Assembly (NCBI RefSeq): GCF_900117455.1
Contig: NZ_FPHO01000003.1
Coordinates: 1,516,501 to 1,580,500, forward strand
Source: Hyphomicrobium sp. CS1GBMeth3
GTDB taxonomy: Bacteria > Pseudomonadota > Alphaproteobacteria > Rhizobiales > Hyphomicrobiaceae
Direction of reading: 5' to 3'
DNA: 64,000 nucleotides
Numbering within the stretch: the first letter of the stretch is position 1; each line of letters begins with the position of its first letter. The notes under the pieces were generated by a model. That model was given only the letters and a program-made list of their open reading frames with translations, was not told where the DNA came from and made no database searches. Made by a program: the position numbers and the translations under genes. This document shows, one piece after another, positions 40,282 through 43,299 of the stretch.

Positions 40282-41052
40282 CTAGGCTTGGGCAGCCCGC
40301 TGCGGCTCCAGAACGGCCCGGAGCAGCGTCGCCTTGCGTTCGAGGTGCCGCGTCACCTCGTCGAGCCGCGCCGGATCCTGGAAGCGCCCTCCGATGGCGG
40401 CGAGCAGCACACGTTTGAGTTCGTCCAGCGTGCCGCGCAGCGCGCCTTCCGTGCACGCCAGCGTTTCGGCAACAAGCTCGGCGGGATCGCGTCCGGGAAG
40501 CGCCACCCCGCGCGCGGGACGGGTCCACCGGACCGGTTTGCCGGCTGTGATGAAGCGGCCGTAGGCTGACATCACGTAGCGGCCGAGCTCGGTGAGCACG
40601 ATGGTCGCGCGCGGCGCCCGCCCGCCCTCGTGAGGCGCCGTCAGCCCGGCCCGACTGAGAGACAGCGCCGCCCGACGCCGCGCCGCGCTGAGCGAGCGCG
40701 ACATGCCGGGCTCGGTTACGGCGAGCGGTGCGCCTGCGGTCGCGGCTGCGATCAAAATTTCGCGCTCGCGCTGCCCGAGGCGGAGTCGGCGCAGACTGTC
40801 GTGCCCGCCTTCGAAGGCCGTCCGGCACTGCCCGCAAGGCGCCAGCGCCCGGAGCCAAGCGCAGGCGTCGTCGCCTGCCGGCGTGAGGTGGCTGAAGAGC
40901 CGGCTGAGTGCGGGGCAGGCCGCCCCGGTATGGGGGCAAACGAGCGCCGCCGGCACCACATTGAGGGTGGCCGGAAAAGTAGCCGGACTTTCCGGCACCA
41001 GACGATGCAGCGTGTCTGCAACGGCTGATGCCTTTGGCACGATCTGATGCAC
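40282..41052 (-). CDS. Unknown protein with Cys cluster and winged-helix-like middle
   Basis: The protein is 256 residues from GTG 41052 (GGCGGGG upstream). The N-terminal third has CPHTGAACPAL and CGQCRTAF, giving five Cys that could bind zinc. The middle (about residues 90-165) reads as a winged helix: GQREREILIAAAT, a recognition-like helix SLSAARRRAALSLSRAGL, and a wing ATIVLTELGRYVMSAYG. The C-terminal ~60 residues are helical and may dimerise. No family recognised. It may be a DNA-binding regulator. The nested palindrome at 41093-41208 lies immediately upstream of it. The longer overlapping minus-strand frame is Arg/Ala-rich shadow. Confidence 0.65.
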   Translation of the reverse strand: MHQIVPKASAVADTLHRLVPESPATFPATLNVVPAALVCPHTGAACPALSRLFSHLTPAGDDACAWLRALAPCGQCRTAFEGGHDSLRRLRLGQREREILIAAATAGAPLAVTEPGMSRSLSAARRRAALSLSRAGLTAPHEGGRAPRATIVLTELGRYVMSAYGRFITAGKPVRWTRPARGVALPGRDPAELVAETLACTEGALRGTLDELKRVLLAAIGGRFQDPARLDEVTRHLERKATLLRAVLEPQRAAQA

Positions 41053-41092
41053 GTCCCCGCCTCTGACGCCTCGAATGGCACAGTTCGTTACG

Positions 41093-41208
41093 ACCCTGTG
41101 GCACCAGACGATTCAGCGGGCGCTGCATCGGCAAGTGCCGGGCACAAAACGATATGATGAGTCAGAGGTTTACTGGCATTTGCTGATGCGGAGCTTGTGC
41201 CACAGGGT
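41093..41208 (+). other. 116-nt nested palindrome (candidate structured RNA or MITE-like element)
   Basis: The outer arms ACCCTGTGGCAC (41093-41104) and GTGCCACAGGGT (41197-41208) are perfect complements. Inside, GCATCGGCAAGTGCC (41125-41139) pairs with GGCATTTGCTGATGC (41175-41189) over 15 bp with two G-T pairs. The apical loop is 35 nt. As + strand RNA both exceptions are G-U wobbles; as minus-strand RNA they would be A-C mismatches. It lies between the glyoxalase stop and the start of the 40282-41052 gene, both on the minus strand. No T-run follows. Confidence 0.6.
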
Positions 41209-41221
41209 GAATGGGTGCGCC

Positions 41222-41617
41222 CTATCGGAAGCGTCCGCTTTTCTCCAGCATCTCGATCTTGTACCCGTCCGGATCCTCGATGAAGAAGAACCGGCCGAAC
41301 GGCTTGCCGTCGTGCGTCATCTGCTTGATATCTTTAGGGGAATATCCGAGCGCCGCGATCCGCTCCCGCTCCGCTTCCAGGTTGTCGACGACGAAGGCGA
41401 TATGTCCGTACCCGTTGCCAAGGTCGTAAGGCTCAGTCCGGCCCTTGTTGACCGTCAGCTCCACCTCGAAGTCGGCCTCCGGGCTGCGAAGGTAAATGAG
41501 AGTGAAGTCGGGAAAGTCCACCCGCTCGGCGATCGAAAGCCCGAATACTTGACTATAGAACGCGACGCTCTTCGCCTCGTTCAGAACCCGCACCATCGAA
41601 TGGATGGCCTTCGCCAT
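41222..41617 (-). CDS. gloA: Lactoylglutathione lyase (glyoxalase I), VOC fold
   Basis: The protein is 131 residues. It isomerises the glutathione-methylglyoxal hemithioacetal to S-lactoylglutathione. SMVRVLNEAKSVAFYSQVFGL, ELTVNKG, NGYGHIAFVVDNLEAE and FFIEDPDGYKIEMLE contain the four metal ligands of the VOC family (His, Glu, His, Glu). AGGGAGGAC precedes the ATG. It is divergent from pccB. Confidence 0.85.
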   Translation of the reverse strand: MAKAIHSMVRVLNEAKSVAFYSQVFGLSIAERVDFPDFTLIYLRSPEADFEVELTVNKGRTEPYDLGNGYGHIAFVVDNLEAERERIAALGYSPKDIKQMTHDGKPFGRFFFIEDPDGYKIEMLEKSGRFR

Positions 41618-41766
41618 GTCGTCCTCCCTCTCGGCGGTTCCGCCGCAGGGCCACAGCCCTGCGTCCGTAGCGCCGTCTCTCCTTTATTGGCTGGCCGAGG
41701 GGCCCTGTGCTATCCCCACGCCAGCCATAGCCAATCACCGGACATCTACATACGGGGAACGTCTCA

Positions 41767-43299
<1,533 letters not shown>

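Follow-up and report, generated by a model that had tools for sequence, protein, structure and literature searches.

The question raised by this locus is whether a 116-base nested palindrome, at positions 41093–41208 of a 64,000-nucleotide stretch of the genome of Hyphomicrobium sp. CS1GBMeth3 (hereafter the window), is an RNA gene, a mobile element or a set of binding sites for a protein. A sequence-only reading had described two concentric helices, with 12 perfect pairs outside and 15 pairs inside, and the sequence bears this out. The same reading favoured a functional + strand RNA, and named a miniature inverted-repeat transposable element (MITE) and a large operator for the adjacent winged-helix-like gene as alternatives. 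We find that the palindrome is real and conserved, and that it most likely belongs to a cluster of DNA operators rather than to an RNA gene.

The two inner arms are opposite copies of a nearly palindromic 15-bp motif, GCAWCRNNNNRTGCC, which is found eight times between 40994 and 41189, around the GTG start codon of a minus-strand gene (41052–40282; Table 1). The array occupies about 195 bp of DNA, beginning at about −137 and ending at +58 relative to this gene. The arms of the palindrome belong to this family of eight copies, which continues as far as 40994, within the adjacent gene's coding sequence, and which had escaped the sequence-only reading. As in an operator cluster, a single short motif is repeated across the presumed promoter and the beginning of a gene. 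The operator alternative is supported, but the operator is larger than the palindrome and built differently.

The array is conserved between genomes. Corresponding positions are occupied, to within 2 bp, in all seven genomes of the genus that carry the gene, apart from site 3, which scores 11/11 in six of the seven and has decayed to 8/11 in genome G005. Among the resulting 56 sites, C5 and G13 are fixed (56/56), G1, A3, T12, C14 and C15 are conserved in 53–55 and C2 in 44, and the middle positions are variable. The noncoding sites 1–5 retain the motif while the linkers between them diverge from genome to genome. In the locus alignment each inner arm keeps its sequence, but the two do not stay matched to each other, and further 15-mers of similar sequence surround them.

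The motif is far denser here than in shuffled sequence. In each genome, 220 bp hold 6–8 matches scoring 10/11 or better, whereas shuffles average 0.07–0.16 (largest shuffle 3), counts that are partly circular because the consensus was derived from the same sites; the 330 bp upstream contain zero such matches. A matrix of 18 sites, made from the three coding sites of six relatives and holding no window sequence, ranks the eight window sites 1, 2, 3, 4, 7, 9, 10 and 12 of 127,972 positions, with the site frame still picked by means of the consensus and ranks 10 to 12 tied to one decimal. The sites form two sets of four with an identical order of orientations (same, same, opposite, same). Corresponding sites of the two sets are 98, 105, 107 and 106 bp apart in the CS1GBMeth3 genome, or about 105 bp, ten helical turns. 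The two sets may be the result of an old tandem duplication. The second set runs from the ribosome-binding region across the start codon and through codon 20.

Table 1. Features of the locus. Site positions are given relative to the start of the array gene; ranks are those from the matrix trained on the relatives' coding sites and run over the 64-kb window.
Feature	Coordinates	Strand	Position	Sequence	Rank	Remarks
Site 1	41175–41189	−	about −137	GCATCAGCAAATGCC	9	right inner arm; 11/11 in 7/7 genomes
Site 2	41141–41155	−	about −102	ATATCGTTTTGTGCC	7	weakest own copy, 9/11; 10/11 in six relatives
Site 3	41125–41139	+	about −86	GCATCGGCAAGTGCC	10	opposite orientation; left inner arm
Site 4	41100–41114	−	about −62	GAATCGTCTGGTGCC	4	GTGCC end is part of left outer arm
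Site 5	41077–41091	−	about −40	GTAACGAACTGTGCC	12	
Site 6	41036–41050	−	+2	GCATCAGATCGTGCC	2	first base is last G of GTG start codon
Site 7	41018–41032	+	+20	GCAACGGCTGATGCC	3	opposite orientation; within coding sequence
Site 8	40994–41008	−	+44	GCATCGTCTGGTGCC	1	within coding sequence
Left outer arm	41093–41104	+		ACCCTGTGGCAC		end of site 4 plus linker
Right outer arm	41197–41208	+				exact reverse complement of 41093–41104; beside a stretch shorter here than in relatives
Array gene	40282–41052	−				256 aa, GTG start, no Pfam match
Upstream neighbour	41222–41617	−				glyoxalase-family gene; ends 13 bases from palindrome; farther from site 1 in six relatives

Three of the sites (6–8) lie within the coding sequence, and the codons there bear a sign of constraint at the DNA level. 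Site 7, read on the opposite strand, covers codons 7–12. Codon 8 is GCA in all seven genomes, though GCA makes up 7% of the Ala codons; codon 11 is GTT (11% of the Val codons) in six of the seven, and codon 9 is TCA (6% of the Ser codons) in five of the six genomes that have Ser there, with the frequencies taken from the remainder of the seven genes and five window genes. A single codon is used by all seven genomes in 12 of 95 conserved columns (Met and Trp excluded). Only one of these 12, GCA at codon 8, is on our list of nine less common codons for Ala, Val, Pro, Ser and His; the seven genomes are related and hence not independent in this comparison. The codon usage suggests that this one site dictates rare codons. 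It looks as if, in a protein tail that is probably disordered, both codons and residues are dictated by DNA sites.

The adjacent gene is predicted to encode a DNA-binding fold, a winged helix. The structure model was built from the window protein together with 75 homologues, picked by manual thinning from the 120 listed (76 sequences in all); it supersedes an earlier model from 7 sequences with a predicted local distance difference test (pLDDT) score of 62. The first 30 residues have low confidence (57–60 by blocks) and are, judging from the model, probably disordered, whereas blocks of ten elsewhere reach pLDDT 85–98. Residues from about 87 to 173 of the predicted structure match MarR-type winged helices, in a fold comparison (VIA list) that covers mainly residues 82–178, and two long helices form the C terminus. 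The comparison list includes TubR (4asn) and the pNOB8 centromere-binding protein (4rs8). A Foldseek search with the same model gave no match in the Protein Data Bank (PDB) at E 0.001 or better. Cysteines 39, 46, 73 and 76 are conserved in at least 90% of the 76-sequence alignment; their spacing, C-x6-C ... C-x2-C, is as in small zinc-binding modules.

The window protein has no Pfam family at thresholds up to E 1. A profile search found 132 homologous proteins, and the 120 of them that were listed are all without a precomputed Pfam domain. The names of those listed say nothing beyond hypothetical protein; the three with an organism name are from Hyphomicrobium sp. No MarR model is among the families listed for seven members, and the resemblance to MarR is confined to the fold of one domain. 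The gene is present in seven of the eight genomes of the genus (the CS1GBMeth3 genome included). Across the family it occurs in seven of 103 genomes, each of them from this genus; it was undetected in G006. Its surroundings are stable. The gene order carboxyltransferase (pccB-like), glyoxalase, array gene, hsp20, DUF1150 and hisG is kept in all seven genomes as far as the contigs reach, with hisG assigned by eye from sequence and G004 represented, here and in the locus alignment, by locus L016. Among the titles listed in a literature search, we found none on the 256-residue protein family or the 15-bp motif.

The array itself is well established, and its binder we infer. We consider it probable that the array is an autoregulatory operator cluster of eight sites, bound by the product of the adjacent gene. 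The winged-helix product, probably dimerised through its two long C-terminal helices, would bind the eight sites. The bound protein would occlude the promoter, the ribosome-binding site and the first codons, and the gene product would in this way control its own expression by autorepression. The ten-turn spacing of the two sets would suit cooperative binding or looping. Such a reading assigns a probable DNA motif, with its probable binder, to a family annotated as no more than hypothetical protein in the names listed; the function of this family thereby becomes testable by one binding assay.

Among the MarR-type winged-helix regulators are autoregulated ones with operators at their own promoters. 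The locus resembles these in the predicted fold and in having nearly palindromic sites around the presumed promoter and the beginning of the gene itself. It differs in that a Pfam MarR match is absent, the protein has an extra cysteine-containing N-terminal part and long C-terminal helices, and eight sites make up two sets of four, three of the eight being within the coding sequence. An alphaproteobacterial precedent for a regulator that represses its own operon is RepA, which is reported to autorepress repABC operons (PMC4492784). RepA is a plasmid ParA-type protein of a replication operon and belongs to another family than the product of the array gene.

Between sites 1 and 2, the block 41159–41167 reads CTYTGACTC in the orientation of the gene (CTCTGACTC here) and resembles a −35 box; GAGTCA, on the + strand, is invariant in all seven genomes. 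No −10 box was seen to match this block, and a promoter scan located no promoter. We also considered a sigma-54 promoter. Such promoters have conserved −24 and −12 boxes, which the motif's GGCAY...GC resembles, and we rejected the idea on a spacing that is, by eye, one base too long.

An unlikely alternative is that a different, unlinked regulator binds the array and that the adjacent gene is merely its target. Eight promoter sites could serve any regulator, and their binding by the encoded protein is our own deduction. The distribution of the motif elsewhere bears on this. We searched seven of the eight genus genomes (all except G004) for the pattern GCAWCRNYWNRTGCC, with the reversed pattern as control. 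The CS1GBMeth3 genome has 15 matches against 4 in the control, 11 of them outside the array, which speaks for an unlinked regulator (an earlier pattern gave 22 against 14). However, 10 of these 11 fall in open frames of at least 645 bases, counted as frames and not as proven genes. The eleventh, L053:601–615 (GCATCGTCAGATGCC), is a high-scoring, isolated match about 180 bp upstream of what appears by eye to be a transporter-like gene; the L053 region has no match in the other seven genus genomes. In the other six genomes searched, matches, array included, are not clearly above the control (9/8, 7/11, 6/7, 3/11, 2/13 and 12/12), though a regulator of wider range ought to act at other loci as well. 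The matches outside the array that we inspected in relatives were nine, four in G002 and five in G001. We rejected a wider regulon on the open frames, the absence of the L053 region from the other genus genomes and the matches in the relatives searched, which do not clearly exceed the control. Near an unrelated motif match in G001 lies a 110-bp direct repeat, 90% identical (L060:63–280).

In the six genomes that carry the gene and were searched, this pattern clusters nowhere but at the array locus; G006, in which the gene is undetectable, has two isolated matches against 13 in the reversed control. A strict pattern of two sites matched four of 397 genomes of the order, namely our own (both four-site sets), G007 (same locus), and G067 and G202, each at a single place; the controls listed gave 0. 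Three of the eight genus genomes are among the 397, and the pattern missed G001, which has the array. The G067 match lies inside a long frame resembling, by eye, gltX, and G067, G202 and G058 (the last with a 26-bp blastn match) have at most three scattered motif matches in about 3 kb. Array and gene thus seem, from the genomes searched, to go together, and this favours the gene's own product as the binder. Plasmids and viral contigs gave no match, and we rejected an association with mobile elements on this ground.

Going beyond autorepression, the gene may belong to a cysteine-containing winged-helix family, in these data limited to one Hyphomicrobium-type genus, with its own nucleoprotein platform, a double four-site array that runs into the coding sequence. 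The first 20 residues would then be written mainly to keep DNA sites, and the complex would do more than repress, for example organise a chromosomal locus. We regard this extension as improbable.

Slighter still is the chance that the array serves, in the manner of a centromere or of iterons, to recruit or anchor a nucleoprotein complex built by the winged-helix protein, with autoregulation as a by-product. Plasmid centromeres of the TubR/tubC type, and others, have winged-helix binders, and the locus is similar in that a winged-helix protein adjoins a cluster of short repeated sites. It differs from TubR/tubC in its mixed site orientations, in sites that extend into the gene and in its synteny with ordinary chromosomal genes. 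The array stands among these housekeeping-type genes in all seven genomes, and by pattern there is one cluster per genome, with no match on plasmids or viral contigs. Its direct neighbours are the glyoxalase-family gene and hsp20, neither a partition NTPase nor a replication gene, and none of the neighbours identified between about 38.0 and 43.3 kb is a partner NTPase.

A structured RNA on the + strand, which the sequence-only reading had preferred, is in our judgement very improbable. In its favour is a strong hairpin in the CS1GBMeth3 genome. The inner helix (41125–41139 with 41175–41189) has 13 Watson-Crick and two G-U pairs on the + strand, as had been noticed, and the + strand fold of 41080–41220 is far beyond its shuffles (−65.3 kcal/mol, z −4.93, 0/200 as good), with the minus strand much weaker (−44.4 kcal/mol, z −1.75, 9/200 as good). 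Over the seven genomes 81.4% of the inner-helix cells pair, and the inner 15 pairs have 12 G-U cells against 5 A-C and 4 other non-Watson-Crick cells. The outer helix gives the one covariation test in favour: with the CS1GBMeth3 genome included, it is reached by 4/500 shuffles and 7 of its 12 pairs are changed on both sides.

Comparison between genomes does not support the RNA reading. Homologues of the locus exist in seven genomes, yet its helices are not kept by compensatory changes. None of 23 inner pairs changes on both sides, shuffles pair as well as the real inner helix in 216/500 cases, and the covariation term of the consensus fold is unfavourable (+1.21), within the limited power of seven sequences. 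When the outer arms were compared with arms swapped between genomes, 185/5040 permutations equalled them with the CS1GBMeth3 genome included and 183/720 without it (by duplex energy, 130/5040 and 123/720). Because the arms without this genome match no better than swapped ones, the outer match is essentially a peculiarity of the CS1GBMeth3 genome. The motif also recurs at six further places outside the inner helix, and Rfam gave no match at gathering score near the element, only a sub-threshold microRNA (miRNA) match (E 0.58). We therefore rejected a functional + strand RNA on the missing inner compensatory changes, the loss of the outer helix outside one genome and the unfavourable covariation.

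The strand-specific wobble pairs, taken earlier as the trace of an RNA, have another source. The two G-U pairs of the window sit at motif positions 6 and 11, both purine-degenerate. With G in one motif copy and A in the other, and with one copy read backwards, G comes to stand opposite T, and a strand bias arises without RNA. Four relatives together have five positions in the arms where the + strand gives A-C, which on the minus strand would be G-U. Inverted protein-binding sites with a purine-degenerate motif can imitate an RNA hairpin bearing strand-specific wobble pairs.

The least credible alternative takes the repeats for a conserved HxxVP peptide feature and the noncoding copies for what is left of a duplication of 5' coding sequence. 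Of the 120 listed homologues, 82 do have HxxVPx[AS] (with M accepted in place of V) within their first 60 residues, 63 of the 120 have VP again 14 residues on, and the upstream four-site set resembles the coding one, but site 7 has the opposite orientation and falls on rare codons, sites 1–5 keep the motif in noncoding DNA with diverging linkers, and the peptide falls within the low-confidence N terminus of the model.

The best explanation of the palindrome itself is sites 1 and 3 in opposite orientation together with an outer repeat, arisen by chance or copied from a template, that is specific to the CS1GBMeth3 genome. Full complementarity of the left and right outer arms is peculiar to this genome among the seven with the locus. 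On its own, the outer 12-bp repeat is not rare in the window, where perfect 12-bp inverted repeats with a gap of at most 120 occur in 7 instances at 5 separate places, the palindrome included. The MITE that had been proposed would be a dispersed element; the 116-base element is single-copy in its own genome at E 0.001 and its orthologues lie at the same syntenic place in all seven genomes, and we rejected a MITE on this ground. An intrinsic terminator of the glyoxalase gene was rejected as well, since a scan of 40900–41850 gave two terminator-like sites, neither within the palindrome; the greater distance of the array from the glyoxalase gene in relatives also counts against it.

The gap between the conserved array and the glyoxalase block (41200–41228) varies in length. 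It is 27 bases here, about 20 more than that in G002, about 80 in G007 and about 180–250 in G001, G003, G004 and G005. The outer arm specific to the CS1GBMeth3 genome, at the junction of array and glyoxalase block, may be the result of the same rearrangement or of template switching.
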